Below are positions 2,006 to 60,630 of a stretch of 64,000 bases of DNA, piece by piece. The DNA lies in contig NZ_PJNI01000009.1 in NCBI RefSeq assembly GCF_002844555.1, positions 124,001 to 188,000 of the forward strand, given 5' to 3'. Position 1 is the first letter of the stretch. Every line of letters starts with the position of its first letter. The notes under the pieces are model-generated. The model was given only the letters and a program-made list of their open reading frames with translations, did not search any database and had not been told where the DNA came from. This DNA is from Brumimicrobium salinarum. Lineage in GTDB: Bacteria; Bacteroidota; Bacteroidia; Flavobacteriales_D; Crocinitomicaceae. Both the position numbers and the translations under genes were made by a program.

Positions 2006-3013
2006 ATGAACTTTAAGAAAGCAATATGGTCAATTCTTATTATCTCCCTCTTTTTTTCATCATGCAAAAGCAATCGTTTGGATGTTGACATTAAAAAAAC
2101 AGATAATGTAAAGATAAATTTTATAAATGCAGACCAATTATTAAACTCAACTGATATAATAAAAACCAAGAAAAATCTAGATAAGTTAAAGCAGGAACTT
2201 GGTAGTTTATTTGAATATGAACTGAGTCAAAATATTCGTCAAAATCTTAATGATTCAGTTTATCAAGCAGTTTTCAACTTTTATAATACGGCATATATAT
2301 CTGATCTAGAAAAAGAGAAGTCTAAACTCTATCCAGACTTAGAAGATCGTAAAGATAAGATTATATCTGCTTTTAATTATTTAGCATATCATTTTGGAGA
2401 TTCAATTATTCCTGAAAGAATTATTTACCTCAATAAGTTATTTAGTCAGGTTTCATGTTCGCAAACAGAAATTGCTGTAGGTTTAGAAAACTATATTTCT
2501 CCAAAGAGTGAAGTTATTCAATCCATTCCTAACAGCCAACTTTATCAATGGCAACGAGATCGCATGGATATTCAATATCTAGAGAGAGACATATTACTCA
2601 ATTGGATTCAGGTACAATTATTTAATGAAATGGATGGTAAATTTGCAGAACATCTTATACAAGCTGGAAAAATTCTTTACATTTTAAATGCAGCATTTCC
2701 GAAAGCATCAGAGCGATATGTTTTGCGTTATAAAAAAGAACAAATGGAATGGGCCAATCAAAATGAAGCCATTGTCTGGAATTATTTAATAAAACAAGAG
2801 GTGCTCTTCAAGAATGATTTAAGAATGCGAACTAACTTTTTAAATGAAGGTCCTAAAACAGTTGGTTTAGCTGATGACGCTCCCGATCGTATTGGACAGT
2901 TTCTTGGTTATCGTATCGTAAAAGGTTTCATGGATAAAAACAAAGCATTATCTTTGTCAGAATTGCTAAAAGTAAGGTATAATACCATACTTCAAACATA
3001 CGAAATCAAGTAA
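2006..3013 (+). CDS. gldB: Gliding-motility lipoprotein GldB
   Basis: A 335-residue lipoprotein whose signal sequence ends in the lipobox FFSSC, so Cys at about residue 20 is expected to be lipidated. Length, position directly before gldC and the body sequence (Tyr/Trp-rich, predicted alpha-helical, DUF2268-like in overall look) match GldB of Flavobacteriia. GldB is required for gliding and for chitin use in Flavobacterium johnsoniae, where gliding and T9SS share components. It is followed after 10 bases by gldC. Recognition rests on sequence memory and context, not on a search. Confidence 0.88.
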   Translation: MNFKKAIWSILIISLFFSSCKSNRLDVDIKKTDNVKINFINADQLLNSTDIIKTKKNLDKLKQELGSLFEYELSQNIRQNLNDSVYQAVFNFYNTAYISDLEKEKSKLYPDLEDRKDKIISAFNYLAYHFGDSIIPERIIYLNKLFSQVSCSQTEIAVGLENYISPKSEVIQSIPNSQLYQWQRDRMDIQYLERDILLNWIQVQLFNEMDGKFAEHLIQAGKILYILNAAFPKASERYVLRYKKEQMEWANQNEAIVWNYLIKQEVLFKNDLRMRTNFLNEGPKTVGLADDAPDRIGQFLGYRIVKGFMDKNKALSLSELLKVRYNTILQTYEIK

Positions 3014-3023
3014 TTAAATTAAG

Positions 3024-3377
3024 ATGGAAAAAGAAGATAAAATAACCAAGACCTCAGAGATATCAATAAAAGTTGGAACAAATGAGAACAATGTACCTGT
3101 GCGAATGAAGTGGAGTGCACAAGACGGTAATATTGAAAATGCTGAAGCAAGCTCAATGTTTTTGTCAGTTTGGGATCCAAAAGAAAAAAATACCATGAAA
3201 ATTGATCTTTGGACAAAAGAATTATCCATTGAAGAAATGAAACAATTCTTTCATCAAACCTTGGTCACAATGGCAGATACCTTTGAACGAGCGACTGGAG
3301 AAAAGAACATTTCTGAGGACTTAAGAGATTATTGTTATCATTTCGCAGAAAAAATGGATATTCTTCCAGAAGATTAA
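3024..3377 (+). CDS. gldC: Gliding-motility protein GldC
   Basis: Small soluble protein (117 residues) without signal peptide, starting with a charged segment and the motif SEISIKVGTNENNVPVRMKWSA. It has the family's typical length and follows gldB by 10 bases, as in Flavobacterium. In the literature GldC enhances but is not absolutely essential for gliding; its biochemical role is not known. It ends 24 bases before the convergent end of lnt. Confidence 0.92.
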   Translation: MEKEDKITKTSEISIKVGTNENNVPVRMKWSAQDGNIENAEASSMFLSVWDPKEKNTMKIDLWTKELSIEEMKQFFHQTLVTMADTFERATGEKNISEDLRDYCYHFAEKMDILPED

Positions 3378-3400: not shown

Positions 3401-5011
3401 TTAAACAGAAGTTCCAAAAGTTTTCAGATACTTGACGATAGTTAATATAATCAATAAAAAGAAAACAAAAGAGAAAGAACGACCAATAACGTCTCCGTAG
3501 GTGATGTAAAATGTTGGCCTATTATTGAGATGAACAACTGATTTAAAAGCATCTCTAACCCAATAATCCGTAGCTTTTAAGACATCTCCTCTTTGATTAA
3601 TCACACAAGAAGTACCCGTATTAGCAGAGCGTACAACGTAACGACCTGTCTCTACAGCTCTTAATCTAGCAATACTTGCATGTTGCTTATGACCCGCAGA
3701 ATTTCCCCACCAACCATCGTTGGTTATTACAAATATCACTTCAGCCCCTTTTCTGCACTGTTCTGCAATCATACCCCCATAAATGGATTCATAACAAATA
3801 ATAGGTGCAAAGGTGAACCCGTGACTATTGAGAACACGAGGCTCTTCTTCTACTCCTAATGTTCCAGAAGTGCCTCCATTTTGAACAGATAATTCCTCTA
3901 AAAAAGGAAACCATTCAGAAAAGGGAATTTTTTCAACACCCAAAACCAATTCAGATTTATGCACAAAAGAAGGAGGTTTTATTTTTGAAATTAATGCTGA
4001 AGTATTATAAGATTCATAAAACATGTCAGAACCTGCAATAGGTTTTGCTGCCGCACTCACCTTTTTATCAAATGTTTTATAGGTAGATGCACCAGTAAAC
4101 AAACTAGTACCTCCCCAATTATTTACACGTTCTTGTAAGTAATTAAAAGCAGCCGATGTTTGATATTGATCTTCATTAAAAGGTTGTGAAATTGCTGTTT
4201 CGGGTGCTAATACGACACTTGTTTTTGGTGTGATTAAAGCTTCTGCATCCAATACAAACTTATCTAATTGCGTTTTTACATCTGTTGAAAACTTCTCATT
4301 ATAAGGATCAACATTGGGTTGGGTAACCACAACTTCAATAGGATTTTCTTTTTCCTGATAACTAGCATAACTCCAATAGGATAAAAGAGCTGGAATAATT
4401 AATAGGAATATCGAAAGATAAATTAATGGCGTTTGAATTTTAAAGCTTTCCTTTTTAAAAATTAGATTAGATGAAATCTTAAAAACAAGCATATTTATTA
4501 ACAAAATCCATAACGCACCACCTAAGATTCCCGTATATGAATACCATTGCACTATTTCAGGCACAGTTGCAAAAGTATTTCCAATATTAATCCATGGCCA
4601 GCTTAATTCCCAATGAAAGTGTAAATATTCAAATCCTATCCAAAAAAACAATAATCCTATATACCCCTCTTTTTGTCCAACATATTTTTTGGTCCAATGA
4701 AAAAGCATAAAGACCAAAGCCATTAAAAAACCGTTTAAGAAATAAGCCAATATTGCACCGGCCTCTCCTCCTATTGAATAATATATCCAATAGGTTGTTC
4801 CTAAATTATAAATGAAAAAAGTAATATAAGCGTGCAATAAAACCTTTCCTGACTTATATTTTTCTCGATATATATTATGCTCTACAAGAAGCAAAGGGAC
4901 CCAAGCTATAAAAACCAATGGAAAAATACTTCCCGTATGGGGAAAAGAAACAACCATAAGTATACCACTCAAAATACTGAGTAAATACCTTTGTAAACGT
5001 GTCAACTTCAT
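3401..5011 (-). CDS. lnt: Apolipoprotein N-acyltransferase
   Basis: Adds the third acyl chain to the N-terminal Cys of lipoproteins at the periplasmic face of the inner membrane. The 536-residue protein has about seven N-terminal membrane segments followed by a nitrilase domain. The catalytic triad is visible as Glu in VLAPETA (about 271), Lys in LGVEKIPF (about 361) and Cys in PIICYES (about 406). The start at 5011 (MKLTRLQRYLL) is chosen over the upstream ATG at 5065 because a TATCTTTG -7 promoter element lies at 5034-5041, between them. Confidence 0.93.
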   Translation of the reverse strand: MKLTRLQRYLLSILSGILMVVSFPHTGSIFPLVFIAWVPLLLVEHNIYREKYKSGKVLLHAYITFFIYNLGTTYWIYYSIGGEAGAILAYFLNGFLMALVFMLFHWTKKYVGQKEGYIGLLFFWIGFEYLHFHWELSWPWINIGNTFATVPEIVQWYSYTGILGGALWILLINMLVFKISSNLIFKKESFKIQTPLIYLSIFLLIIPALLSYWSYASYQEKENPIEVVVTQPNVDPYNEKFSTDVKTQLDKFVLDAEALITPKTSVVLAPETAISQPFNEDQYQTSAAFNYLQERVNNWGGTSLFTGASTYKTFDKKVSAAAKPIAGSDMFYESYNTSALISKIKPPSFVHKSELVLGVEKIPFSEWFPFLEELSVQNGGTSGTLGVEEEPRVLNSHGFTFAPIICYESIYGGMIAEQCRKGAEVIFVITNDGWWGNSAGHKQHASIARLRAVETGRYVVRSANTGTSCVINQRGDVLKATDYWVRDAFKSVVHLNNRPTFYITYGDVIGRSFSFVFFLLIILTIVKYLKTFGTSV

Positions 5012-5033
5012 ATCAAGAATTTTCGAATCATTA

Positions 5034-5041
5034 CAAAGATA
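5034..5041 (-). promoter_or_regulatory. -7 promoter element of lnt
   Basis: TATCTTTG on the minus strand matches the Bacteroidota -7 consensus TAnnTTTG and lies 22 bases before the chosen ATG. No clear -33 TTG was found. Confidence 0.6.
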
Positions 5042-5226
5042 ATATTGCCTACCTATTGAAAGCAAAAATCAGGTAAAAGTATTCTACTAACTATGTGTTT
5101 TGTTTTATTGAACTATCAAAGATTATGTGACTTCTAAATAAATGATTCCATTACCTTCACATCTGAATTCTAATAAAATAAATGTGGAAAGTGGCAAACA
5201 TCACCAAGCAAATCATTTTAGACAAA

Positions 5227-7598
5227 TTACCTTAAGACATTAATATGTCCTGTCTTTAACCTGGTTGCCTCATCATGTATAGTTCTATATTCGATTTTCC
5301 ACACGTATGTACCATCGCGTACAACTTTATTTCTATACCTTCCATCCCATTCAAAATCGACATCATGGGATTCATAAATTTTCTCACCCCACCTATTAAA
5401 TATCTTAATATGTAGCTCTACAATTCCAATTGCTTCGACTGTAAACACGTTATTTGCGCGATTCCCATCTGGAGTAAAAGTATTTGGAATATACAAGTAA
5501 ACCTCATCTAAAATCACAATAGGTTTTGTAATTGTATCTTTACAACCATACTGATCTGTTGCTATTAAATTAATGTTATAATTACCAGGCACTTCATAGA
5601 TATTATTAGGATGTGTCATTGTTGAAGTCGATCCATTTCCTAAATCCCATGTATAACTATCACCATTATTGGTTAAATTCTGAAAAGTTATCGGTAAACC
5701 AATAAACTTCGGTTCTGTAATCGCTTCAAAATTTGCCTTGGGTTTTACAACTTCTACAAAAGTTTCTGCTACTACTTGAAATGTTTGGCAATCATCTTTT
5801 ACAATAACTGAATAACCGGTACTTTTTTTAGGATTAACCCAAACACTCTGTGTGGTTTCTCCTGAATGTGGCCAATTGTAATAATAATTTCCAAAACCTC
5901 CTGTTGGATTAACGGTAAGTAATACAGAATCGCTGGGGCAAACTTTTTGTTCTGGCGTAATATCCAATAATAAAGGTGGACTTAGGACAGTAATCGTAAC
6001 TTCTGTTGTGTCTGATTCGCCGCAATCATCTGTAACAACCACAGTATAAGTAGAAGTTTCTCTTGGTGCAGCTTCGGCTTCCGAAAAAATACTAATCATC
6101 TGACCTTGAGGATTAAACCATTGATACGAATATTCCCCCGAACCACCTATTGCTTCTACAAATAAGGATTGTGGTACATAAGGACATTGTTCCACAATAT
6201 CTGGTGTAGCATCAATAACCAATGGATCAAATACAGGTACAGTTACCTCAATAGTTGTGGTAGCGGTTTCATTTAAACAATCATCAGTAACACTAACGGT
6301 ATAACTTTGTGTTGTATTGGGATTAACAAAAATAGTTGGTGTTGTTTCTCCTGTACTCCAACTATATGTGTATCCTCCGCCTCCACCTGTAGCCACAGGA
6401 ATTAATTCAATTTCTTCACCAGGACAATTTAGAGTTTGATCATCTAATGTAATTTCAACAGGGTCTACAGGTTTTATGAAAAGTTCTATTTCTTGAGTTT
6501 CTATATTACCACATGCATCTTCAATTTCAAATGTCATAATTAAATTAACAACACCCGTAATTGCGGTATTATTTAAAGCATCAATTGTAAAACTCACTGT
6601 TCTTTGTCCAGGTGAAAAAGTTACTGAAGACGGAACAGAAGAGTAATCCAATCCTTCAACAGCTGAACCCGAAAGATCAATAGGTATGGTTAACGCTTGA
6701 TTCAAATTCCCTCCAGATCTTGAGACCGTCACCTCTGCCCCTGTACAGTTTTGAGCCATCGTTTGACCATCACCTGTTGGGTCGCTAGTTAGTGTATATT
6801 CTACTTTCACTGGCTGTTCACTATTCAAACTGTTTTTTTCTAGAAATATACCCGAATCATAAATTGCATCTTGGACGTCTGCAAGAGCTATTACCAAATG
6901 ATACGTTTCACCACATTCAACTTTAGAAACCGCCTCTAATGGAGTTGTAAACCCATCATATTGTACATAATAAGGGTTAGAATTATATGGACCATCATTC
7001 CCTGTACCATTATATTGATAGTAGGAAGAATTTAGTCCTGCATTCACATTATTAATGGTTACGGGTGAAGTCGTTCCTGGAATAATTGCCATGTTTTGCG
7101 TACCACCCGAAATACCTGGTCCTGATATAAAGAAAGCAAATACATCGTTAAACTCTGAGTTTACATATTCAGGATATTCCTCAGAGGCAAAAACATATTT
7201 AAACCGAACGGTATCGGATAAAGGAATGAAATCAAATTCTAATAATGTAGCATTATACGTTTGGGTATTCACTAAAGCTGAAAGCTGATTGTATCCACCA
7301 TACCCGTTATCTATTCCCGCATTTTCTTTGGTATTTGGCCCGTGTGGACCATTTGGACCTGCCAGGACAGTTCCTGTGGTTAAAATAATTCCTTCATCAA
7401 TACCTATACTAGCATTAGTAGCATCAAAAGTTCCAATAGCATTATTTGCACCAGAGTACGTCACATTTGAGACTTGAACTCCAGAACCTAGAAGTACATC
7501 TTCAACCAATTGGGTTGGGGTCATACCAGTATTTGTTTGCAACTGTCCATAAAGTACAGAGGAAGATAACAACATAAAATATAAAAAAATAGTCTCAT
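5227..7598 (-). CDS. Large T9SS-secreted protein (choice-of-anchor L, PKD, type B sorting domain); start broken by a T7 run
   Basis: About 790 residues if the frame is repaired. N-terminal region: choice-of-anchor-L-like (TFDATNASIG..ILTTG, RFKYVFASEEYPEYV). Middle: several Ig-like repeats, each with a YSWSTGET/YQWFNP-like strand and a CGE/DDC pair. Then a PKD domain (YTWDLGNGSTSTMTHPN) and a C-terminal gliding-associated type B sorting domain (YIPNTFTPDGNRANNVF ... IFNRWGEKIYES ... WDGRYRNK). This predicts export by the T9SS and surface attachment or adhesion. The best ATG (7598) is followed by a run of seven T and is out of frame; eight T would give MRLFFLYFMLLSSSVLYGQ, a proper signal peptide. 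As sequenced, only an internal Met (7575) is in frame. Confidence 0.85.
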
Positions 7599-7739
7599 TT
7601 GGTTATATGACGTTTAAAAGTACATAAAGTTGTTCTTTATCATACAATTAATAAGCCAAATTTAAAGTTCATATTTATCAAACTAAAATAATATTCAATA
7701 ATTTAACTTAAAATAGCTTTTAAAGCTACTACATTAATA

Positions 7740-7747
7740 TAATTTTG
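7740..7747 (+). promoter_or_regulatory. -7 promoter element of the M23 peptidase gene
   Basis: TAATTTTG fits TAnnTTTG and ends 10 bases before the ATG at 7758, implying a very short 5' leader. Confidence 0.6.
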
Positions 7748-7757
7748 CAGCATCAAA

Positions 7758-8615
7758 ATGAAAAAAAGAAGAAAAGAAAAAAATTGGTTCAAACGTTCTA
7801 CACGAATTGTAGGAATGGATCCCGTTACGTTTGAGGAATGGTGGAGGATTAGAATAAATAGAATACAACTAATAAGCGTAATTTCTTTAATAATTATGTT
7901 CATATTCTTTTTAAGTTATTTCATTTTTTCATACACTCCTGTGGGTTATTTATTACCTGAAAATATTAAGAACAGGAACAAACAAAAAATTGAAAAAGCT
8001 GCTATAAGAGTTGATGAATTAGAGAAGAAAATCAATAAACAAAGCCATTACATTCAAAATCTTCAAAAAGTTATTTTAGGCGAAACTTCTATCGATTCTA
8101 TTTATGAAATTAATAAAAACTTTTATGACAACAATATAGAAATTGATGTGGACACTTCAATTTCACAAGCCGAACAGCTATTAGATAAAAATATAAAACA
8201 ATCAGCGGTAAACAAAGAAGCCGATCAGCGGAGGTATTTTGACCAATTGTTTTTGTTTGATCCTGTAGTTGGTGAAATCAGTCAGAAATTTAGAATTCCT
8301 AATCATGCGGGAGTAGATGTAGTTACAAAAAAAGACGCTCCTATAAAATCATGTTTAAGCGGTGTGGTGCTACATTCTTCATATAATTCAGAAGATGGAC
8401 ATACCATAATTATTAGTCATGAAAACGAAATTATTTCTGTTTACAAACATGCAAAAACAACTAATGTAGAAGTTGGAGATCGGGTAAAAATAGGAGAAAC
8501 GATAGGAATAGTTGGAAATACTGGAGATAGAACTTCTGGTCCGCATCTGCATTTCGAATTATGGTCAGACATTGGTCCTCTTGACCCATTAGATTATTTT
8601 TCTTTTGGTCAATAA
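7758..8615 (+). CDS. Membrane-anchored M23-family (LytM-type) metallopeptidase
   Basis: Peptidoglycan-hydrolase-type protein of 285 residues. It has a basic N-terminus (MKKRRKEKNWFKRS), one membrane segment at about residues 38-58, a coiled-coil-prone stretch (about 75-110) and a C-terminal LytM domain. The zinc motifs are visible: NHAGVDV (HxxxD) and, near the end, GPHLHFELW (HxH). This layout (cytoplasmic basic tail, one TM, coiled coil, LytM) is common in Bacteroidota homologues that act on, or sense, the cell wall in the periplasm. It has its own promoter element. Confidence 0.9.
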   Translation: MKKRRKEKNWFKRSTRIVGMDPVTFEEWWRIRINRIQLISVISLIIMFIFFLSYFIFSYTPVGYLLPENIKNRNKQKIEKAAIRVDELEKKINKQSHYIQNLQKVILGETSIDSIYEINKNFYDNNIEIDVDTSISQAEQLLDKNIKQSAVNKEADQRRYFDQLFLFDPVVGEISQKFRIPNHAGVDVVTKKDAPIKSCLSGVVLHSSYNSEDGHTIIISHENEIISVYKHAKTTNVEVGDRVKIGETIGIVGNTGDRTSGPHLHFELWSDIGPLDPLDYFSFGQ

Positions 8616-16637: not shown

Positions 16638-17564
16638 TTGGGAAAAGGAAAAGTTATCAAATCAACAGGAAAATGGTACATCGTTGAACTAGAAGATGAA
16701 TCCATTATTCAGGCTGGATTACGTGGAAAAATCCGTCTTAAAGGAATTAAATCCACTAATCCTGTGGCCGCTGGAGACGAGGTCATGATAAGCAAAAATG
16801 ATGACGGAACAGGTGTGATTACCGAAATATTACCCCGTAAAAATTACATTGTCAGGAAATCTATAAACCTTTCCAAACAATCACATATTTTAGCAGCAAA
16901 CGTTGATCGTGCTTATTTGCTTATCACATTAGCTGCTCCAGAAACTCATTTGGCTTTTATTGACAGATTCTTGGTGGCAGCAGAAGCTTATCGCATTCCT
17001 GTAACTTTATTGTTCAACAAGATGGATATCTATATGGAAGAACATTTACCAATTATTGATGATATTATTGAAATTTATGAATCAATTGGATATTCATGCG
17101 AAAAGATATCTGCACTAAACAAAACAAATGTTGACTTTCTAAGGCGTGAAATCAACAAGCAGCAAGTAATGATTGCAGGACACAGCGGTACCGGAAAAAG
17201 CACATTAATCAATGCTTTAGATCCGAGTTTAGACATCAAAACGGCTGAAATTTCTGTTCATCATTTGCAAGGTCAACATACCACAACATTTGCTGAAATG
17301 CACAAGCTTAAATCAGGCGGATATATTATTGACACACCTGGCATTAAAGCCTTTGGAGTAGTTGATTTAGACAAAAAAGTAATGAGTCACTATTTTCCAG
17401 AAATGCGTGCATTAATGCATCAATGTAAGTTTAATAATTGTATGCACCTCAACGAACCACAATGCGCCATTAAATCGGCCTTAGAGGAAGGAGAAATACA
17501 TCTCTCTCGGTACAATACTTATGTTGATTTAATTACTGAAGATCAAACAGAAACATACAGATAA
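16638..17564 (+). CDS. rsgA: Ribosome small-subunit-dependent GTPase A
   Basis: Late 30S assembly GTPase. The 308-residue protein has an N-terminal OB fold (about 1-70) and a circularly permuted GTPase domain (G4 NKMD, G1 GHSGTGKST, G3 DTPG). A C-terminal zinc domain has Cys/His in CKFNNCMHLNEPQC. The start is a TTG: an in-frame stop lies 12 bases upstream and the next Met is deep in the OB fold. A purine-rich AAAAGGAAAAG precedes it. First gene of an rsgA-dtd-MazG-like operon with touching ends. Confidence 0.95.
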   Translation: MGKGKVIKSTGKWYIVELEDESIIQAGLRGKIRLKGIKSTNPVAAGDEVMISKNDDGTGVITEILPRKNYIVRKSINLSKQSHILAANVDRAYLLITLAAPETHLAFIDRFLVAAEAYRIPVTLLFNKMDIYMEEHLPIIDDIIEIYESIGYSCEKISALNKTNVDFLRREINKQQVMIAGHSGTGKSTLINALDPSLDIKTAEISVHHLQGQHTTTFAEMHKLKSGGYIIDTPGIKAFGVVDLDKKVMSHYFPEMRALMHQCKFNNCMHLNEPQCAIKSALEEGEIHLSRYNTYVDLITEDQTETYR

Positions 17565-18017
17565 ATGAGAGCAGTTATTCAAAGAACAACAGAAGCAAGC
17601 GTAAGTATAAATCAAAGTATTTCAGGTAAAATAGAGAAAGGACTTGTTATTTTCCTGGGTATTGAAGCAAATGATAATGATGATGACATTGAATGGCTTT
17701 GTAAGAAAATGAGTGCATTGCGTATTTTTTCAGACGATGAAGGAAAAATGAATTTAAGTATTCAAGATGTGGAAGGTTCTTTTTTAGTTGTTTCTCAATT
17801 TACATTACATGCCAAAACAAAAAAAGGAAATCGACCGAGTTTTATCCATGCAGCAAAACCGGAAATTGCGGTTCCCATCTATGAAAAGTTTAAAAAAATG
17901 CTGGCTGTTCTTAGTGGTTGTACTGTTGAAAGTGGGGAATTTGGAGCTGATATGCAAGTTCAACTAATAAATGACGGACCGGTTACGATAATCATTGATA
18001 CAAAAAATAAAGAATAA
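17565..18017 (+). CDS. dtd: D-aminoacyl-tRNA deacylase
   Basis: Removes D-amino acids (and glycine) wrongly attached to tRNA. The 150-residue protein has the family start MRAVIQRTTEASVSI, the SQFTLHAKTKKGNRPSF active-site block (SQxT) and the cross-subunit Gly-cisPro motif as NDGPVT near the C-terminus. It begins directly after the rsgA stop codon and ends with a 1-base overlap (TAATG) with the next gene, so translation is likely coupled. Confidence 0.97.
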   Translation: MRAVIQRTTEASVSINQSISGKIEKGLVIFLGIEANDNDDDIEWLCKKMSALRIFSDDEGKMNLSIQDVEGSFLVVSQFTLHAKTKKGNRPSFIHAAKPEIAVPIYEKFKKMLAVLSGCTVESGEFGADMQVQLINDGPVTIIIDTKNKE

Positions 18018-19810: not shown

Positions 19811-20080
19811 TAGCCCGGATTATTAACTCCTTTAGTCGTTGAGCTCGCAGGCTCGGTTCATGCATTTAATTTTAAATCTATTCTAGGCACAAGACCTAAA
19901 GTAATATATGTATATTTCGCGGGGCTTGTAACGACGAATAGATCAAAATTAAATCAAAATCTTACAAATACACAAATACCCAAAAATGGGTTTCTCAAAT
20001 TTTACAGGAGATACAGTTAAAACACTGACTTACAGGTGTTAATATTCTTAAACTTTAAGATTGGTGAATAATTCGGGTTA
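19811..20080. repeat. MITE-like element A, copy 1
   Basis: Bounded by near-complementary ends TAGCCCGGATTATT and AATAATTCGGGTTA. Its inner about 225 bp match copy 2 (50369-50604) in reverse orientation with only a few substitutions. This copy has about 32-34 extra bases just inside the left end (19825-19856). The element carries several small hairpins (for example TAGGCACAAGACCTA and ACCCAAAAATGGGT) and no open frame. Confidence 0.8.
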
Positions 20081-20098
20081 GCATACGCGTAAACGATT

Positions 20099-22940: not shown

Positions 22941-23036
22941 TATTCCTCTTAATTTTGTAAAACCCAGACCACCCCGCGAACGAGATGGAATCTCGCACGA
23001 GCGGGGGGTATTCTTCTTAATTTTGTAAACCCCAGA
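22941..23036. repeat. Direct repeat pair flanking a REP-like hairpin
   Basis: Two copies of a 28-base sequence beginning TATTCYTCTTAATTTTG (22941-22968 and 23009-23036) flank the hairpin at 22972-23006. The rest of the 22828-23350 gap holds no recognisable gene. Confidence 0.8.
22972..23006. repeat. REP-like hairpin, copy 1
   Basis: A 35-base palindrome: CCCCGC ... GCGGGG outer stem and CGAGAT GGA ATCTCG inner stem. It is much more GC-rich than its surroundings and identical to the copy at 25752-25786. Confidence 0.85.
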
Positions 23037-25751: not shown

Positions 25752-25786
25752 CCCCGCGAACGAGATGGAATCTCGCACGAGCGGGG
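25752..25786. repeat. REP-like hairpin, copy 2
   Basis: Identical over 35 bases to 22972-23006, extending three more bases (GGG) and T on the right. It abuts the truncated end of a ParE-like gene fragment. Confidence 0.85.
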
Positions 25787-25792
25787 GGTGTG

Positions 25793-25876
25793 CATTTTAA
25801 TGTTTTCGAGAATGAAATTATTATTGTTGCTGTTTTTCATACGAGCCAAAGTCCGAAGAAGTGGGATAAAAGATAA
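25793..25876 (+). pseudogene. C-terminal fragment of a RelE/ParE-type toxin
   Basis: Reads HFNVFENEIIIVAVFHT then SQSPKKWDKR and a stop. The pattern (strand with E-N-E-I-I-I-V-A-V-F-H-T, then NPKKW-like end) is the C-terminal end of RelE/ParE superfamily toxins. Only about 27 of an expected 95-100 residues remain and the REP-like hairpin begins 7 bases upstream, so the gene was cut there. No antitoxin remains nearby. Confidence 0.75.
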
Positions 25877-31601: not shown

Positions 31602-31711
31602 ACCTAGTTTCACTTAATCTATAAAAACCAAATTAAGGTTCAAAAACAATTGTTGCAGTCTGGTTTAGACATTAGTTAACCGGCTTATACCTAGGAAGAA
31701 TATAAAGTTAA

Positions 31712-32026
31712 TGGGTTACCAAGATTTGTCGGTAATTAATCACTATTTGCTAAAAGATTTCTCCATCCCAAAAATCTTTGATTTTTGGGATGATCGAAAT
31801 GACATTCACTTTAGGGTTGGTATAGGAGAAAAAGAGGAAAAGCTACGCTTTTCCTCTTTTTCTCCATCTATCTTTTCATTCCTGTCATTTCGACAGAGTC
31901 CCGAGAACTCGGGGCGACAAGAAATCTTTACAAATCATTTTAATACATGCGTTAACAATGAAAAAATTGTAATTTATCGATTACAATTCGCAACATAAAG
32001 AGTTAACTACCTATCTTGGTAACCCA
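31712..32026. repeat. MITE-like element B, copy 1
   Basis: A 315-bp element with 14-bp perfect terminal inverted repeats (TGGGTTACCAAGAT / ATCTTGGTAACCCA) and a 10-bp flanking direct repeat ATAAAGTTAA (31702-31711 and 32027-32036), as left by transposition. Inside are nested hairpins: TCCCAAAAATC/GATTTTTGGGA, GAGGAAAAGC/GCTTTTCCTC, CCCGAG/CTCGGG and AATTGTAA/TTACAATT. An open frame runs through it but is a by-product (see the rejected list). Confidence 0.9.
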
Positions 32027-32042
32027 ATAAAGTTAATTAAAA

Positions 32043-45307: not shown

Positions 45308-45460
45308 CAAAGACTTAGCGCATGAGAAATAAATCCTTAAGAAATATCTTTTTCAGATTAGTAAACTGACTTACATATCTTTTGATCTATGAAATTATTA
45401 AGGTTAATAAGGGTGAAACAACACATCCATTAAATAAGACAGTAAAGCTTTAATTAATTT

Positions 45461-45525
45461 GTTAAATTTGAGTTGAAATATACAGGCGATATATGCGCAA
45501 TTGCGTATATCCAGTTGTTGTGCAT
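45461..45525 (+). promoter_or_regulatory. Cassette leader A: -7 element, palindrome and core
   Basis: GTTAAATTTG (contains TAAATTTG, -7 consensus) is followed by ATACAGG, a palindrome GATATATGCGCAATTGCGTA continuing TATC (45488-45511) and the core GTTGTTGTGCAT (45514-45525). The core is complementary, 11 of 12, to 46033-46044 behind the gene. Confidence 0.65.
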
Positions 45526-45545
45526 AATTTGATAAAAATCACGAA

Positions 45546-46025
45546 ATGAATAAAATAGTTGGAATTTTATTGACAATTTTACTTCTGATTTCCTGTAAGA
45601 ATTCACAAAAAATGGAAACGGAAAATAAGTCTGAATCTAAAAACGAACTCACTCAAACGGAATTAATAAAATCGGAATCAAATCAAACCGAATTGATTGT
45701 TCAAAAAATACTTGACTTACCCAAACTTCAATGGATTTTTCATCCTGAATTGAAAGAAAGACTACCAGTAAAAGTTTTGGAAACAGAAATGATTGAAAAA
45801 AACTTTAATCTTAAAAAATTCGGACAAAAAGTAAGAATATTATCAAAGTCGGAATTAGAAAACGAAGGAATTAAAGACTTTGTGATAATAGACAAAATAA
45901 AAATAGAGAAAGACACGGCGGAATTTGGGCTGTCTTATAAAATAGAAGGTGCTGGTTGTAGTGGAAAGTTTTTTAAACAAAATGGAGAATGGAAAATTCG
46001 AGATTATTCTGTATGGGAAAATTAA
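45546..46025 (+). CDS. Small lipoprotein, cassette 1
   Basis: A 159-residue lipoprotein: IVGILLTILLLISCKNSQKMET with lipobox LLISC, a charged linker and a globular C-terminal half (LEKEIKIDKIKIEKDTAEFGLSYK in parts; AGCSGKFFKQNGEWKIRDY). The end resembles small surface lipoproteins with an NTF2-like strand pattern, but no family is named. The gene is flanked by complementary core sequences and lies in the cassette-like block. Confidence 0.65.
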   Translation: MNKIVGILLTILLLISCKNSQKMETENKSESKNELTQTELIKSESNQTELIVQKILDLPKLQWIFHPELKERLPVKVLETEMIEKNFNLKKFGQKVRILSKSELENEGIKDFVIIDKIKIEKDTAEFGLSYKIEGAGCSGKFFKQNGEWKIRDYSVWEN

Positions 46026-46032
46026 AAAAACT

Positions 46033-46138
46033 ATGCACAATAACTAAGTATTCGGCGTGCCGATTACGCCCTACGGTTGTGAGATCGCTTCGCTAAGTTG
46101 GTCAACGCTGAACTACGAAGTACTCATGAATACCTTAA
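46033..46138. other. attC-like site behind cassette 1
   Basis: Begins with ATGCACAATAAC (complement of the core at 45514-45525), then TAAGTATTC, which can pair with GAATACCTTA at 46129-46138, enclosing GC-rich hairpin arms (TCGGCGTGCCGA, CTTCGTAGTTCAG-type). Recognition as an attC site is inference. Confidence 0.4.
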
Positions 46139-46415
46139 AAAACAAACAAGAATGAATAATACCATGTTGACGGATCCGGATTTACTTTCACCGTACTGAG
46201 CCTGCCGAACGTATGGGGAAAACGTTTTAATACATTATTTTTGAAAGATGATTTAGTGGTTTGCAGACTCGAAAGTGTACGTGCATTTCTCATTTAAGTT
46301 GGTTGATAACTATTCATTTTCACAAAACCCGCGTAGTTATTAAGCTTTCGCTGTTTATATTTCTATTTCACTATTTCTAAGCCATAACTTCTCCATTACG
46401 TCAATATCGTTGCAT

Positions 46416-46610
46416 TTATACTGTTGATTTATTGACACTTAAAGTTTCTCTCCAGTTTTCTGGTGGACCTCTTCCATCAAAAAGTAAAACTGTGATTAAT
46501 TTTCCTTTTTTACACCTTGGACATCGCCTGTGATGTGTTGGATTTTCCTTAATAATTTCGGACGTTTTCTTTTCATTCAATAACTTTTGAAGTTCGGGTA
46601 GCTCCTCAAA
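46416..46610 (-). pseudogene. C-terminal fragment of an IS91-like transposase
   Basis: Reads FEELPELQKLLNEKKTSEI, then RRCPRCKKGKLITVLLFDGR, GPPENW, and a stop. The CP.C..G....LLFDGRGPP pattern is the C-terminal zinc-ribbon end of IS91-family (HUH) transposases. Upstream in the same frame a TAG follows FYGYKPKPEAS...LLDTS. No catalytic part is left. It lies between cassette 1 and leader B. Confidence 0.65.
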
Positions 46611-46810
46611 CTAGCTTGTATCCAACAAAACCAACTTCATAAAGCTGCCGGTTGCCGTCGGGGTGGGAATTGAAGCTTCGGGTTTTGGTTTGTAGCCGTA
46701 GAATTACACGTCTAATTATACGCTTACAAACGCTTATTACTTTTTGATGTAAATTGTTTTTTTTTGAGTAAAAACATAGCGTTTTAAAGCTATTAATATG
46801 TTATAATTGT

Positions 46811-46864
46811 TAAATTTGAATAAAAGTTGGCTAAACGTAATACGATTAGCCAATTGTTGGCAAA
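46811..46864 (+). promoter_or_regulatory. Cassette leader B: -7 element, hairpin and core
   Basis: TAAATTTG (46811-46818), then the hairpin TTGGCTAA ... TTAGCCAA (46827-46853) and the core GTTGGCAAA (46856-46864), which is complementary (8 of 9) to TTTGCTAAC at 47656-47664. The hairpin shares 22 identical bases with the leader at 60480-60501 on the other strand. Confidence 0.7.
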
Positions 46865-46946
46865 CATGAGAAGTACACACTTCACTACAGACAATAATAT
46901 CAATCGAAAAACAGTTTGTATAAGTTACCAAAAAATTAATTATTCG

Positions 46947-47642
46947 ATGTTGAAGAAATCATTATTTATACTTTTAGTTGGTCTTCTAGCTTCAACTATA
47001 ACTATTGCCCAAAAAAACCGAATATCAATATATTCAGGGTTATTTCATAATTACTTTGACGGTTCTCCAATGCTTAACGTCAATTACCATTCTGATGAGT
47101 GGGGCTTTTTTAAGAATAGATTTTTTAGTTCATTTGGGATTGCATATCAAAGAAAGTTGAATTCTAAATCAAGTATTTATATTGATGTTGATTATAGGAC
47201 GAATGAATGGAAACATATATTTCCTAATTTAGAGACAAATGCAGTTCAAGCGAGGGAGAATGTTACGGCAAATCTCGGCTATAAAAGAAACTTTATGCTG
47301 TCTAAAAAATTTAACTTCATATATGGAGGAGGTATTAACTTTAGAAGGGGTCATGAATCAATCCTCGTTTCTTATGGTAAATTCATCGGTACAGATTTCT
47401 ATCATTCAAACAGTGTGTCAAGAAATGTAAATGATTTTGGTTTAAATATTAGAACCGGAATTGAGTATACTCCAGTAAAATGGTTAACATTATATTCAAA
47501 GTTTAATCTTATTGGATTTTTCTTTCTTGATGATCGAGAAACAATAGATCTTTTACAAAGAGATTACGAAGGTTACGGTTACTCTGAGTACCCCCATAGG
47601 TTTGATTTGTCTTGGCGATTTGGAGTTGGCTTTAACTTCTAA
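46947..47642 (+). CDS. Outer-membrane beta-barrel protein, cassette 2
   Basis: A 231-residue exported protein: signal peptide MLKKSLFILLVGLLASTITIAQ from the ATG at 46947, then barrel-like strands (FGIAYQRKLNSKSSIYIDVDY, NFIYGGGINFRRGHE, FDLSWRFGVGFNF, with the terminal F of outer-membrane barrels). The frame is open back to a TTG at 46827, but that part is the leader hairpin. Function unknown. Confidence 0.75.
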   Translation: MLKKSLFILLVGLLASTITIAQKNRISIYSGLFHNYFDGSPMLNVNYHSDEWGFFKNRFFSSFGIAYQRKLNSKSSIYIDVDYRTNEWKHIFPNLETNAVQARENVTANLGYKRNFMLSKKFNFIYGGGINFRRGHESILVSYGKFIGTDFYHSNSVSRNVNDFGLNIRTGIEYTPVKWLTLYSKFNLIGFFFLDDRETIDLLQRDYEGYGYSEYPHRFDLSWRFGVGFNF

Positions 47643-47655
47643 AATAAATGCACGA

Positions 47656-47732
47656 TTTGCTAACAGCAAATAAGCACAATCCCGAATCGTACCTCTCGGG
47701 ACTGTGCCTATTTGCGAGACGTTAGCTGTAAC
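47656..47732. other. attC-like site between cassettes 2 and 3
   Basis: TTTGCTAAC (47656-47664), a 20-bp stem with arms 47666-47685 and 47696-47715, an asymmetric bulge GAGAC and then GTTAGCTG (from 47721). The two imperfect stem positions are A-C on the top strand but G-T wobbles on the bottom strand, so the bottom strand folds better, as in integron attC sites. Confidence 0.55.
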
Positions 47733-47781
47733 CCCTAAACCAAAGAATACGTATTCATAAACTTAATACAACAAATTATTA

Positions 47782-48411
47782 ATGAAAAAAATAGATTTAA
47801 CTAAATGGAAAAGAAAAGAGCATTTTGATTTTTTTTCAAAAATGGCAAGTCCAACTTTCGGGATAGTTACAGAAGTTGATTGTGATGAATGCTATAAAAA
47901 TTCTAAAGAAAACGGTATATCTTTCTTTGCAAATTACCTTCATAAATCAATGATTGCAGTTAATTCTGTAGATGAACTAAAATATAGAATCGTTGATAAT
48001 GAAATAATAGAATTCGAAAAAGTTCATGCTGGAATAACTGTTGGAAGAGAAGACGAAACTTTCGGCTTTGGATTTGTTAATTTTACTTTAGATTTTGAGA
48101 CTTTTAACGCAGAATTAAAAAATGAAATTTTAGCAGTAAAAAACTGTTCAGGATTAAGACTAAATAACGATGATATTAAAAAGGATTTAATTCGTCATTC
48201 AACTATTCCATGGAATTCATTTAGCGGATTATTACATCCTACAAATTTTGACCAAAAAGAATCTGTTCCTAAAATAACATTTGGAAAGTTTACTATCCGA
48301 GAAGGAAAAAGGATGTTACCGATTTCTATAGAAGCTCATCATGGATTAGTTGATGGTTTCCACATAGCAAAATATTTAACTGAATTTCAAAATCAACTCA
48401 ATACAAAATAA
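47782..48411 (+). CDS. Chloramphenicol O-acetyltransferase-like protein (type A), cassette 3
   Basis: A 209-residue protein of the CATase family. It has the active-site motif HHGLVDGFH (HHxxxDG) near the C-terminus, N-terminal WKRKEHFDFF and the SIPWNSFSG-like STIPWNSFSGLLHP block. Trimeric CATs acetylate chloramphenicol, but many chromosomal homologues have unknown acceptors, so resistance is possible, not shown. It lies between attC-like sites, a typical place for such a gene. Confidence 0.85.
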   Translation: MKKIDLTKWKRKEHFDFFSKMASPTFGIVTEVDCDECYKNSKENGISFFANYLHKSMIAVNSVDELKYRIVDNEIIEFEKVHAGITVGREDETFGFGFVNFTLDFETFNAELKNEILAVKNCSGLRLNNDDIKKDLIRHSTIPWNSFSGLLHPTNFDQKESVPKITFGKFTIREGKRMLPISIEAHHGLVDGFHIAKYLTEFQNQLNTK

Positions 48412-48497
48412 CAATTTGCTTTTAAATATTGAATATATTTATGATTGTGTAAGCAAATTGCCTCAATGCCAGAATATGCAAATCGTTAGCGGCAACC
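48411..48497. other. attC-like site between cassettes 3 and 4
   Basis: CAATTTGC (48412-48419) can pair exactly with GCAAATTG (48453-48460) or, with one wobble on the bottom strand, with GCAAATCG (48478-48485). It is followed by the core GTTAGCGGCAACC (48485-48497). Confidence 0.5.
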
Positions 48498-48527
48498 TTA
48501 TCTGAACAACCATCAAAACAAAAAAAA

Positions 48528-48983
48528 ATGGACATAATCATTAGAAAAGCAACAGAAAAAGACAGTCATAAAATTTGGGTTTTAATGAAAGAATTAGCTG
48601 TTTTTGAAAAATATATTGACAGTTTTGCAATTACGCCAGAAGTTGTAAAGAACAGTGGTTTTCGGAAAAGCCCACCTGACTTTCATTGTATTGTAGCCGA
48701 AGACAACGATAAAATTGTGGGAATATTGGTCTATTATTTTTTACCTTACACTGCCCAAAACAAACCTGCAATTTATATGAAAGAACTTTATGTGGACGAA
48801 AATTATCGTGGTCGGAAAATTGGCGAACGACTGATGAACGCTTTGTGGGATGAAGCGTTGGTGCATAATTGCGAACAAATAAAATGGACGGTTGCACCTT
48901 GGAACAAAGCAGGTCAAAAATTTTATGAAAGGTTGGGTGCTAATCAAAATAATGAATGGCTAAATTACGAATGGAATTTATGA
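48528..48983 (+). CDS. GNAT family N-acetyltransferase, cassette 4 first gene
   Basis: A 151-residue acetyltransferase with the acetyl-CoA loop in YMKELYVDENYRGRKIGERLM (RxxxIG-type) and WTVAPWNKAGQKFYERLGA. The layout resembles diamine/spermidine acetyltransferases (thialysine acetyltransferase group). It overlaps the next GNAT gene by 4 bases (ATGA). Confidence 0.88.
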   Translation: MDIIIRKATEKDSHKIWVLMKELAVFEKYIDSFAITPEVVKNSGFRKSPPDFHCIVAEDNDKIVGILVYYFLPYTAQNKPAIYMKELYVDENYRGRKIGERLMNALWDEALVHNCEQIKWTVAPWNKAGQKFYERLGANQNNEWLNYEWNL

Positions 48984-49495
48984 AAATAACACGAATAACG
49001 ACCAATGAAATAGACCAATTGCAAAAAATTGGAAGACAGACTTTTTACGAAACATTTTCGACAGGTAACACCCAAGAAAACATGCAGAAATATTTAGACG
49101 AACGATTTTCCATTGAAAAGCTGACGGCTGAATTGAACGACAAAAACGCCATATTTTATTTTGTCCAACTTGAAAATAAAATTGTTGGTTATCTGAAAAT
49201 AAATTTTGGCGATTCTCAAACGGAATTAAAAGACGACAAGTCTCTTGAAATCGAAAGAATTTACGTACTTAAAGAGTTTCAAGGAAAAAAAATCGGACAA
49301 ATTCTTTATGATAAAGCAATTGAAATAGCCAAGCAGAAAGATGCAGATTATATTTGGTTAGGCGTTTGGGAAGAAAATCCAAGAGCAATCAAATTTTACA
49401 AAAAAAATGGTTTTGTAGAATTTGATAAGCACATTTTTAAACTTGGCAACGATGAGCAAACAGACATTATGATGAAACTAAAATTAACAAACTAA
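48980..49495 (+). CDS. GNAT family N-acetyltransferase, cassette 4 second gene
   Basis: A 171-residue acetyltransferase with IERIYVLKEFQGKKIGQILY (acetyl-CoA binding, QGKKIG) and LGVWEENPRAIKFYKKNGF, similar to the PaiA-type GNATs. The ATG at 48980 overlaps the previous stop by 4 bases; the upstream in-frame start at 48956 would lie inside the first GNAT. The substrate is unknown. Confidence 0.88.
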   Translation: MKITRITTNEIDQLQKIGRQTFYETFSTGNTQENMQKYLDERFSIEKLTAELNDKNAIFYFVQLENKIVGYLKINFGDSQTELKDDKSLEIERIYVLKEFQGKKIGQILYDKAIEIAKQKDADYIWLGVWEENPRAIKFYKKNGFVEFDKHIFKLGNDEQTDIMMKLKLTN

Positions 49496-49518
49496 CAAAC
49501 TAAAACGGAAGAAAAGAA

Positions 49519-49584
49519 GGCAGCCGCTAAAACAATTAAGCATCAATGAGGTCAAGTAAGGCTTGAGTTCATTGTCTTGGTGTT
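49519..49584. other. attC-like site behind cassette 4
   Basis: GCCGCTAA (49523-49530) is the exact complement of TTAGCGGC at 48486-48493 in front of the cassette. It is followed by a long imperfect hairpin: CAATGA, TCAAG (49544-49556) pairing with CTTGA, TCATTG (49562-49574), and AAG with CTT outside. Confidence 0.55.
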
Positions 49585-49627
49585 GAACTCTGCCTTTGGT
49601 GGCGGGTTCGAAGCCTAAAAAAAACTT

Positions 49628-49849
49628 TAGCATAAATACGCGCTGCTTTAACTGCGAGTATCTGTCGTAAATGGTATACAAGGGATTACGGTTGTCTGGA
49701 ATAAATGAACTTATTCTTTTTAACAAGCCATGTTTTCTCTCTAATTGCTCCAAATAAATCAAGGCTCCATCAGAACTTATCTCTTGAGCTGAAAAATCTA
49801 CTAAAACCTCCTTTTTACCTCGATAAAATACTGTATTTTTGATACTCAT
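49628..49849 (-). pseudogene. N-terminal fragment of an IS1380-like transposase
   Basis: Begins MSIKNTVFYRGKKEVLVDF, SAQEISSDGALIYLEQLERK, and follows the N-terminus of IS1380-family transposases to YDRYSQLKQRVFML. It then switches at a run of eight T (minus strand) to unrelated sequence (KFFLGFEPATKG). About 74 of 400-plus residues remain. It marks the right edge of the cassette-like block. Confidence 0.8.
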
Positions 49850-50368
49850 AATTGGGTGTGCTAAAAGTGTATGTTTTTTATGTTTAAGGACTTTAAAAAT
49901 AACACTTTGCACCCTTTTATCCTATCTTTCTATGAATTTTTCGGGTTATTTTTGTATCGTATAAAACTACCCCAAATTTGGGTATCAGTCCTTAATGTTT
50001 GAATTCTTTTGATTTTATATTTCAATTGTAATTTGTTGATATAGAATACTATTATCATCAAATCACGAATCTCATCTAAAATACAAAATAATCTCATGAA
50101 CCGAGCTTGCGAGTTCAACGAAGTTAATAATTCTATCTAACAAATTGACTAAGTTACTAAAATCAGCTATTTTATATCACAAAAGCCCCGCTACTTTAGA
50201 ATACAGGTAATATTTTGATTCACGATTTTTTTTGTCATCATTTTTGTATTGCTACGCGACAAAAATGCCGCCAAAAAGAATTATACCGATATTTATAGCC
50301 CCGCGTTGCGCTTTGCTTACACGGGGCTATAATTACTTGACACCTTCAGCGTCAGGTGTAATTCAATC
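49850..50368. repeat. Gene-free, repeat-rich stretch
   Basis: Holds a copy of the CCGAGC..GCGAG.TCAACGA...AGTTAATAAT block (50101-50129), also found as the insertion in MITE-like copy A1. It also holds the TTTTATATCACAAAAG repeat (50170-50204), a hairpin TATAGCCCCG / CGGGGCTATA (50295-50332) and a second hairpin ACACCT / AGGTGT (50341-50358). No gene seen. Confidence 0.6.
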
Positions 50369-50604
50369 TAACCCGAATTATTCACCAATCTTAAAGTTTA
50401 AGAATATTAACATTTGTAAGTCAGTATTTTAACTGTATTTCCTGTAAAATTTGAGAAACCCATTTTTGGGTATTTGTGTATTTGTAAGATTTTGATTTAA
50501 TTTTGATCTATTCGTCGTTACAAGCCCCGCGAAATATACATATATTACTTTAGGTCTTGTGCCTAGAATAGATTTAAAATTAAATGCATGAATAATCCGG
50601 GCTA
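50369..50604. repeat. MITE-like element A, copy 2
   Basis: A 236-bp element with 16-bp terminal inverted repeats (TAACCCGAATTATTCA / TGAATAATCCGGGCTA, two mismatches); nearly identical to copy A1 in the opposite orientation. No clear target duplication was seen. Confidence 0.85.
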
Positions 50605-56610: not shown

Positions 56611-56627
56611 TCTTATTAAAATTTAAT

Positions 56628-56942
56628 TGGGCTAACAAGATAGGTCGTTAACTCTTTATGTTGCAAATTGTAATCGATAAATTACAATTTTTTCATTATT
56701 AACACACGTAATAAATTGATTTGTAAAGATTTCTCGTCGCCCCGAATTCTCGGGACTCTGTCGAAATGACAAGGTTGTAAAGATAGATGGAAAAAACGAG
56801 GAAAAGCTACGCTTTTCCTCGTTTTTTCCTTTACCAACTCTAAAGTGAATGTCATTTCGATCATCCCTAAAATCTTTGGTTTTTGGGATGGAGAAATCTT
56901 TTAGCAAATAGTGATTAATTACCGACTAATTTTGGTCACCCA
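56628..56942. repeat. MITE-like element B, copy 2
   Basis: Exactly 315 bp, opposite orientation to copy B1, with decayed ends (TGGGCTAACAAGAT / ...GGTCACCCA) and a decayed 10-bp flanking repeat (8 of 10). The same nested hairpins are present. Confidence 0.88.
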
Positions 56943-57013
56943 AATATTTTATTTAAGCGAAAGCAGGAAAAGTGCTGAGTCCTATTCCCTCTCCTTAAAA
57001 TGTCAACGCATTT

Positions 57014-59485: not shown

Positions 59486-59815
59486 CTAAATTAGACTTTT
59501 TATAAATTCATCAGGTGTCATAATGGGAAGTAATGACTTTTTAAAGTCCTTACCATTTCTGGTTAATATTATATCGCATTCTGCTTCGGTTGCATTAAAA
59601 TATTGCAAAGCATCTTCAAAATCAGCAAATGATGAATTTAATCCCTTCTCAATAGTTTGTTCATTTAATGAGCAAATTTCACTTATGATTTTAAACTTTT
59701 GCGGCGGCCTGTTTTTAAATCTTTTATCGAAGATACAAACTTTTACATATACATTAGTGTAAAAATCGAAGGGTTGCACAGGCTGACCATCAAAGGATAT
59801 GTTACCTGCTGCCAT
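59486..59815 (-). CDS. PIN-domain C-terminal half behind an unrelated N-terminus
   Basis: A 109-residue frame whose second half is the end of a VapC-like PIN domain: SSFADFEDALQYFNA (conserved acidic DFEDA), CDIILTRNGKDFKK (TRN.KDF) and TPDEFIKS. The first half (MAAGNISFDGQPVQPF, FYTNVYVKVCIFDKRF) does not resemble a PIN N-terminus, so the catalytic Asp and Glu of strands 1 and 2 are missing. Probably a chimeric relic, inactive as a nuclease. It begins 4 bases after the mazF-like stop. Confidence 0.55.
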   Translation of the reverse strand: MAAGNISFDGQPVQPFDFYTNVYVKVCIFDKRFKNRPPQKFKIISEICSLNEQTIEKGLNSSFADFEDALQYFNATEAECDIILTRNGKDFKKSLLPIMTPDEFIKSLI

Positions 59816-59819
59816 TTAA

Positions 59820-60143
59820 TTAATCGACAAATGTTTCTCTTATAACTTGCTTACATAATAATATTTCATTGTCCGAAAGAGTGCCTAGGTTTTTAATGAC
59901 CCTGGTTTTATCAATGGTTCGAATCTGATCGACTATCACCCAACCAATTTGTTTGTTGTGTTTAACTTTTACTCGAGTTGGGTACTTCTTGCTTTTCGTA
60001 GTCATTGGTGCAATCGTAATTGTTCGCAAATTATCATTAATCTCATTTGGGGAAATAACTACACACGGTCTTGTTTTCTTTATCTCACTACCTAGCGTTG
60101 GGTCTAGATTGACTAAAACGATGTCGTATTGTTCTAATTCCAT
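59820..60143 (-). CDS. PemK/MazF family toxin
   Basis: A 107-residue endoribonuclease toxin: MELEQYDIVLVNLDPTLGSEI, KKTRPCVVISPNEIND and QIRTIDKTRVIKNLGTLSD, the usual MazF blocks (RPxVVIS with the catalytic Arg/Thr, and DQIRTIDKxR). It cleaves mRNA when not bound by its antitoxin. It overlaps the antitoxin gene by 10 bases. Confidence 0.92.
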   Translation of the reverse strand: MELEQYDIVLVNLDPTLGSEIKKTRPCVVISPNEINDNLRTITIAPMTTKSKKYPTRVKVKHNKQIGWVIVDQIRTIDKTRVIKNLGTLSDNEILLCKQVIRETFVD

Positions 60144-60379
60144 TCGTCGAAATTTTCATCCTCAAAAACATCCTCAAAGAAAAGTTGGTCGTCACCTTCC
60201 TTATTCATTCTTTTGAATGCGTTATCCCAACCTTTTCTAGGCTCACTAATAGGCTTAAGTATAATTTGTCCTTTTTCCATGATCAATTCAACCTTATCTG
60301 AAATATTATATTTCTCTAAGATGATTTTGGGTAGCCGAAAGCCCTTTGAATTACCTATTTTTATAATCGAAATCTCCAT
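60134..60379 (-). CDS. AbrB/MazE-type antitoxin
   Basis: An 81-residue protein with the swapped-hairpin AbrB start MEISIIKIGNSKGFRLPKII, LEKYNISDKVELIMEKGQIILKP, and a flexible acidic C-terminus (FEDVFEDENFDEW) that would bind the toxin. First gene of the module; a palindrome at its promoter suggests autoregulation. Confidence 0.9.
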   Translation of the reverse strand: MEISIIKIGNSKGFRLPKIILEKYNISDKVELIMEKGQIILKPISEPRKGWDNAFKRMNKEGDDQLFFEDVFEDENFDEWN

Positions 60380-60393
60380 AACATAAACTATTG

Positions 60394-60409
60394 TGTATAT
60401 ACAAAGTTA
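60394..60409 (-). promoter_or_regulatory. Promoter and likely operator of the mazEF-like module
   Basis: TAACTTTG (-7, 60402-60409) overlaps the palindrome TGTATATACA (60394-60403) on the minus strand, 15 bases before the ATG. An AbrB-type antitoxin bound there would block transcription. Confidence 0.5.
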
Positions 60410-60471
60410 TTACATCCTAGGCTTTAAAACAAGTTTTATTATACTTTTGTTGTGGACGGTTTGCAGGTAAA

Positions 60472-60524
60472 AGCTAGCCAATCGTATTACGTTTAGCCAA
60501 CCTGTAAGTTTTATTCCAAATTTA
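60472..60524 (-). promoter_or_regulatory. Cassette leader C (second promoter of the module)
   Basis: On the minus strand TAAATTTG (60517-60524), GAATAAAACTTACAG and then the hairpin sequence shared with leader B (22 identical bases, 60480-60501). The further core CCACAACAAAAG lies downstream. Confidence 0.6.
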
Positions 60525-60630
60525 ACAATTAAATCAATAAAACAAGCTACTGGAAGTTATTCATTACAAAGCACTCATCTGAGTTCTATGATGTAACTCC
60601 CCCCATCCTTCCCCACAAATTATTCCCCCA

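Follow-up and report, generated by a model that had tools for sequence, protein, structure and literature searches.

Probable orphan attI sites of an integron-like gene-cassette system dispersed in a Brumimicrobium genome

Background

Sedentary chromosomal integrons combine an integrase, an adjacent attI with a promoter, a GTT crossover and complementary R'/R'' ends with folding attC sites, tandem arrays and cassette exchange, and CALINs are clusters of attC that lack an integrase; in integrons, the start of a cassette is complementary to its R'' end. IntI, the integron integrase, contains an additional domain, which Messier and Roy in 2001 reportedly described as necessary for activity. Integrase surveys select for this domain (PMC2426708). 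Hardly any integrons have been reported in Bacteroidetes by surveys, the one complete case named by IntegronFinder 2.0 being that of Salinibacter ruber M1 (PMC9024848). For attC, lengths of 57-142 nt are given in the literature (PMC2727003).

The locus analyzed here lies in a window of 64,000 nt on contig C86 of a 3.41-Mb draft genome (Brumimicrobium, Flavobacteriales). Judged from sequence, it appears to belong to a system with the architecture of sedentary chromosomal integrons, including a promoter motif in attI, attC sites of similar length and, as judged by its outcome, cassette exchange. Compared to IntI integrons, however, the integrase lacks the additional domain and falls under the TIGR02249 cut-off, R' reads GTTRK.. 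rather than GTTRRRY, and attI copies are scattered over the chromosome. Treponema integrons also differ, as their integrases are IntI and each genome contains a single array, in contrast to the many orphan sites described here. By sequence and by fold, the integrase core matches best with simple tyrosine recombinases of the XerA type (NCBIfam NF040815; PDB 5hxy), but many members of the integrase family described here, unlike the XerA type, have an extra N-terminal region of ~70 residues and show linkage to cassette arrays. Some resemblance is also seen to elements of the IS91 family that are accompanied by a tyrosine recombinase, as one of them adjoins the integrase on contig C23 and its recombinase is a relative; these elements, however, leave GTT-bounded cassettes unexplained, and the IS91-linked recombinase forms a separate lineage in the tree. 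Overall, the system follows integron logic with an enzyme outside the definition of IntI, and its scattered attI copies are unusual. In the open-licence literature on Bacteroidetes and Flavobacteriales integrons we found no description of such a system, an absence that in that literature is weak evidence.

Three attI-like sites and their family

A preliminary description of the window reported three sites in which a promoter-like motif, a spacer and a palindrome follow one another, and regarded them as one family placed before incoming genes. All three are present within a few bases of where they had been placed, and the family assignment is borne out by the data below. The motif TTGTTAAATTTG is located at 45459-45470 (+), 46807-46818 (+) and 60528-60517 (-), in each case followed by an inverted repeat. 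The orphan attI-like site A (45459-45519, plus strand) contains an inverted repeat at 45488-45511 and a crossover GTT at 45517-45519; site B (46807-46858, plus strand), also orphan and attI-like, has its inverted repeat at 46827-46853 and its GTT at 46856-46858; and the third such site, C (60472-60528, minus strand), has an inverted repeat at 60500-60473 and a junction that reads TTTACC rather than GTTACC, i.e., the crossover G is absent. As had been described, B and C share a hairpin, with the core GTTGGCTAAACGTAATACGATT, and A shows the same layout with another palindrome.

Genome-wide counts were based on pattern and similarity searches. Exact copies of TTGTTAAATTTG were found 11 times in the 3.41-Mb genome, as compared to 3 for the reversed control pattern; 7 of the 11 were accompanied by hairpin and junction (sites A, B and C, one site each on C10 and C20, and two on C23) and four were not (L001, L002, L003 and L008). 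Sequence-changed copies lie on C7, C1, C15 and C20 of the same genome and further copies in other Brumimicrobium genomes, contrary to the refuting condition of the preliminary description that no more copies would be found; in all, 27 copies from seven genomes were curated. Similarity to the hairpin by itself, to the flanking repeat or to the regions of A and C served to gather these copies, and the promoter motif was itself a search criterion for some of them. TAnnTTTG was present in all 27 curated Brumimicrobium copies, 37-48 nt upstream of the junction, and also in every copy that had been retrieved by the hairpin alone, without use of the promoter (44-47 nt upstream); by comparison, it was found in ~5% of random 92-nt windows and in 11 of 33 integrase-linked sites. 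In Flavobacterium psychrophilum, TAnnTTTG has been mapped as the -7 consensus of sigma-A (PMC9723704), and TAAATTTG, previously proposed to be a -7 promoter element, does match this box.

The junction was GTT in 26 of the 27 copies, site C with its TTT being the remaining one. Past the GTT the genes are unrelated, yet their first bases resemble GTTRKNNNYAAT, with an invariant A at position 11 in 26 copies. Tested against the R' consensus GTTRRRY, these starts showed GTT in 26 of 26 and R at the next position in 25, with mixed bases at later positions.

In the family alignment the inverted repeat covaries, with both sides changed in 7 of 12 pairs (covariation 0.30, as compared to 0.15 for shuffled alignments and at most 0.11 for slid controls). 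Folded as DNA, site B was more stable than its shuffles (z -5.1); A and C by themselves were not more stable than their shuffles (z about -0.7), so that for these two sites it is the family alignment that supports a stem. When 84,980 species were scanned for the hairpin pattern, the site was recovered from Brumimicrobium only; pattern matches elsewhere were without the other parts of the site and are probably fortuitous. An Rfam search of the window yielded 0 matches.

Linkage to integrase genes

The same type of site stands directly behind integrase genes in other Brumimicrobium genomes. In G002, a tyrosine recombinase frame ends in ...IKSPIELLNLS and an A-type site, near-identical to site A, starts in the final codons of this frame (TTAAATTTGAGTTGAAAATACAGGG...GACCTGTT); the same order of integrase and attI was found in G009. 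The hairpin of site B also occurs 3' of integrase genes, as G003 carries two B-type sites after decayed 3' ends of the same integrase gene, for which 72 and 58 C-terminal residues could be aligned. An attI adjoining the integrase gene, with the first cassette at the GTT, was thus observed in G002, in G009 and in other genera. On C65 of the window's genome (L041), two truncated copies of a related integrase gene, of the C23 type, retain the 3' end at ~2800-3170 and at 17440-17800; each is followed by its attI and a different cassette. Given such decayed or truncated 3' ends in G003 and on C65, some orphan sites represent integrons with a truncated integrase gene.

An intact integrase of the G002/G009 type was not found in the window's draft genome, where C23 carries the only intact family member. 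As the attI of this C23 integrase is a different one, A, B and C may be relics in this genome. The C23 locus (L039, C23:268000-278272; 4554-8561) contains the intact integrase, one cassette, a second tyrosine recombinase, a frame-shifted IS91-family transposase and then a cassette with a clear attC. A recombinase near the C15 site, considered as a candidate for the integrase, was rejected, as it is the housekeeping XerD.

Cassettes in the window and their exchange across loci

The genes behind the sites are organized as putative cassettes that start at GTT and end in a complementary ...AAC, with attC-like hairpins between cassettes. Cassette 1 (45517-46040, plus strand), with a putative lipoprotein gene (ORF 45546-46025), has inverted-repeat ends, starting with GTTGTGCATA and ending with TATGCACAA; homology with G004 begins exactly at 45517, and in G004 the cassette is preceded by an attC-like sequence. 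Between cassettes 1 and 2 lies a repeat of 815 nt (46041-46855, plus strand), inserted at a cassette R'' end, which ends in site B and is represented by four long copies in the genome. At four places, the first bases of this repeat (TAACTAAGTATTCGGCG) coincide precisely with a cassette's R'' end, and the cassettes differ. An IS91 remnant suspected within it from a reading frame was unsupported by Pfam or NCBIfam.

Cassette 2 (46856-47664, plus strand) encodes an outer-membrane-like protein (ORF 46947-47642); its ends (GTTGGCAAA and TTTGCTAAC) are complementary with one wobble, and homology with G005 stops at the R'' end (47663). Cassettes 2 and 3 are separated by an attC-like site (47653-47728, plus strand) with AAC at 47662-47664, a 56-nt spacer and GTT at 47721. 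This site is the only attC of the window above a stem score of 11.5, and in its bottom-strand fold (z -7.2) the R boxes are paired. Cassette 3 (47721-48484, plus strand) contains a gene with a chloramphenicol-acetyltransferase fold (ORF 47782-48411; PF00302, 1.7e-29). A copy that is 99% identical is present in G001 between different flanks, and the match starts 13 nt inside the predicted cassette start. A weak second attC-like stretch (48409-48490, plus strand; ATTTGC...GCAAAT), identified by eye and under the stem-score threshold, precedes the GTT at 48485, where cassette 4 (48485-49495, plus strand) begins; this cassette carries two GNAT acetyltransferase genes and its 3' end is cut by a transposase remnant (49484-49912, minus strand). 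The array at 45.5-49.5 kb thus contains one strong attC, one weak stretch and no integrase, where a CALIN is defined by at least two attC sites with no integrase nearby.

Behind site C, a cassette on the minus strand (59801-60471; start TTTACCTGC, end GCAGGTAAC) carries genes classified as mazE (60134-60379) and mazF (59820-60143). The prediction of a type II toxin-antitoxin module is based on matches to PF02452 (MazF/PemK, 6.8e-30) and PF04014 (1.8e-5) in adjacent genes with the MazE-like gene upstream. The suggestion that this mazEF-like module is a further member of the mobile set was borne out, as the same cassette stands first behind the G009 integrase (85.9% identity over 672 bp), with the alignment ending at both crossovers. 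A PIN-domain-like frame (59486-59815, minus strand) begins within the mazEF cassette's R'' end and looks like a fusion to downstream sequence.

Complementary cassette ends were also found elsewhere, e.g., GTTGGGCAA...TTGCCCAAC on C15, GTTAGCAGC...GCTGCTAAC on C23 and GTTATATAT...ATATATAAC on C1. An own-end pairing score of 9 was reached within 1.5 kb downstream by 8 of 24 sites, as compared to 0.95% of 527 cross pairings; a clear cassette end within 1.5 kb was not found at most of the 24 sites. In three species, a total of four different cassettes occupy the first position beside one and the same conserved chromosomal flank. The clpX flank is followed by mazEF in the window's genome; in G005 and G002 it carries attI copies with other genes behind them, and in G003 it is empty, with ychF directly after clpX. 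Homology stops at the crossovers for mazEF as well as for cassettes 1 and 2. At the C20 site, the leading cassette (L028, 5201-6217, minus strand) encodes a TIR-domain protein of the CAP12/Pycsar effector type (PF10137), possibly a defence gene.

The integrase and its relation to IntI and Xer

By the sequence features that define IntI, i.e., the additional domain and the TIGR02249 cut-off, the integrase is not an IntI. It matched TIGR02249 in two stretches with 207.4 bits, below the curated cut-off of 265 bits, and the additional domain (~40 residues) is absent, as 67-68 residues separate the conserved boxes as compared to 109 in IntI1; where the integrase has 18 residues, IntI4 has 60. The C23 integrase scored 185 and 175 bits against the XerC and XerD equivalogs, below their cut-offs of 330 and 335, and separate XerC and XerD genes are present in the window's genome. 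An AlphaFold model of the integrase (pLDDT 83, pTM 0.51) was compared over residues 69-346; this predicted structure matched XerA with Z 23.7 (rmsd 13.4, 255 aligned) and IntI4 with Z 21.5 (rmsd 5.3, 267 aligned). In the tree, IntI, Xer and the integrase family are separate, with a branching order that is unsure owing to long branches.

Occurrence beyond Brumimicrobium

At E<=1e-60, a threshold at which some matches may be other recombinases, the integrase family was found in 145 of 299 relatives, usually with one member per genome. In several genera of Flavobacteriales, the first GTT is located ~100 nt after the integrase gene and is followed by cassettes placed end to end, whose spacers measure 62-64 or 117-120 nt. 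When 13 integrase loci were scanned under strict criteria, 23 cassettes were identified at 9 loci, 10 of them joined end to end, as compared to 0 in 39 shuffles; two of these cassettes, located on a plasmid from Chryseobacterium, are atypical in having a 134-nt spacer. Integrons are recognized by cassettes in tandem whose R' and R'' ends are complementary and whose attC folds, and this arrangement is present here. On the plasmid of Chryseobacterium sp. SNU WT5 (NZ_CP041688.1), a family member annotated as "site-specific tyrosine recombinase/integron integrase" is followed by small genes on the same strand and a group II intron. This intron lies inside the cassette run (L185, 16716-18458); some group II introns target attC sites.

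A canonical IntI above the cut-off was found in 1 of 295 Bacteroidia genomes. This single protein, which does contain the additional domain, is encoded at L184 (G437:C40:3592-4530).

Interpretation and alternative explanations

As the same site stands behind integrase genes in G002 and G009 and behind decayed 3' ends in G003, sites A, B and C very probably represent orphan copies, scattered through the genome, of an attI that belongs to an integron-like system of gene cassettes; in the sequences, this reading is carried by the anatomy of the site, its linkage to integrases, the cassette ends, the varied cassettes at a fixed site and the stops in homology at the crossovers. In the parent arrangement, as observed in relatives, the integrase gene is transcribed towards attI, which contains TAnnTTTG (as the putative equivalent of Pc), the inverted repeat and the crossover GTT, followed by cassettes. 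Most likely, by analogy, the integrase acts at G^TT to join attI with the attC of a cassette in circular form, in which case the attI site would stay put, different gene cassettes would be joined to it at the GTT, and each new gene would be placed just behind the promoter motif. Recombination itself, the use of a folded single-stranded attC by an enzyme without the additional domain, and promoter activity would be expected from this arrangement; the orphan sites may serve an integrase acting in trans or may be relics.

The preliminary description had proposed that incoming genes are given a promoter and a 5' hairpin. A promoter motif does precede the cassettes; a mobile leader, i.e., a 5' untranslated region that accompanies every accessory gene as it moves and regulates that gene, is nevertheless very improbable in our view. 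The promoter motif in every copy, and a covarying stem that would be within the transcript, are what such a leader predicts, but cassette homology begins at the GTT, past the hairpin, the leader is absent before cassette 1 in G004 and differs before mazEF in G009, and the site stands behind integrase genes. The site thus appears to remain in place as the gene changes. Also very improbable is the end of a MITE- or IS-like transposable element with an outward promoter, inserted beside different genes: site B does end an 815-nt repeat with four long copies and an IS91-type element adjoins the C23 integrase, but the same upstream flank carries different genes in two genomes, indicating that the gene side changes rather than the flank, the cassette ends are complementary, and the B repeat has no transposase match.

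Chance association of a common AT-rich -7 box with random palindromes, for which the four hairpin-less occurrences of the motif might speak, has a negligible probability; with 27 copies sharing a covarying stem and a fixed junction, it is excluded by the enrichment of the motif, by near-identical hairpins at unlinked loci before different genes and by the covariation. A further alternative retains the attI reading and concerns the inverted repeat alone, to which the integrase or a regulator could bind in double-stranded form, without any hairpin being formed. We give this an even chance, as attI is described as the canonical double-stranded partner of a folded attC (PMC2727003) and A and C alone fold like shuffles; the stable fold of B and the covariation across the family point to a hairpin but would be expected in either case.

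More broadly, Flavobacteriales could possess their own widespread class of integrons lacking the IntI additional domain, with the attI-promoter site multiplied in Brumimicrobium and a trans-acting integrase that loads and expresses cassettes at ~ten chromosomal sites, as a distributed integron; we propose this tentatively, with somewhat more doubt than confidence. If true, a route of gene capture that has attI, attC and tandem arrays and yet dispenses with the additional domain has been overlooked in a large bacterial order, the need for this domain in IntI becomes directly testable, and the orphan attI sites would represent many expressed entry points per chromosome for captured genes, such as mazEF, acetyltransferases and the TIR-domain protein.

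Other repeats in the window

The window also contains two pairs of repeats in inverted orientation, possibly MITE- or IS-derived, at 31702-32034 and 56620-56952 (333 nt, 89% identity) and at 19857-20081 and 50368-50592 (225 nt, 98% identity). A 53-nt repeat at 22972-23024 and 25752-25804, with copies that are 91% identical, contains a CCCCGC...GCGGGG palindrome.
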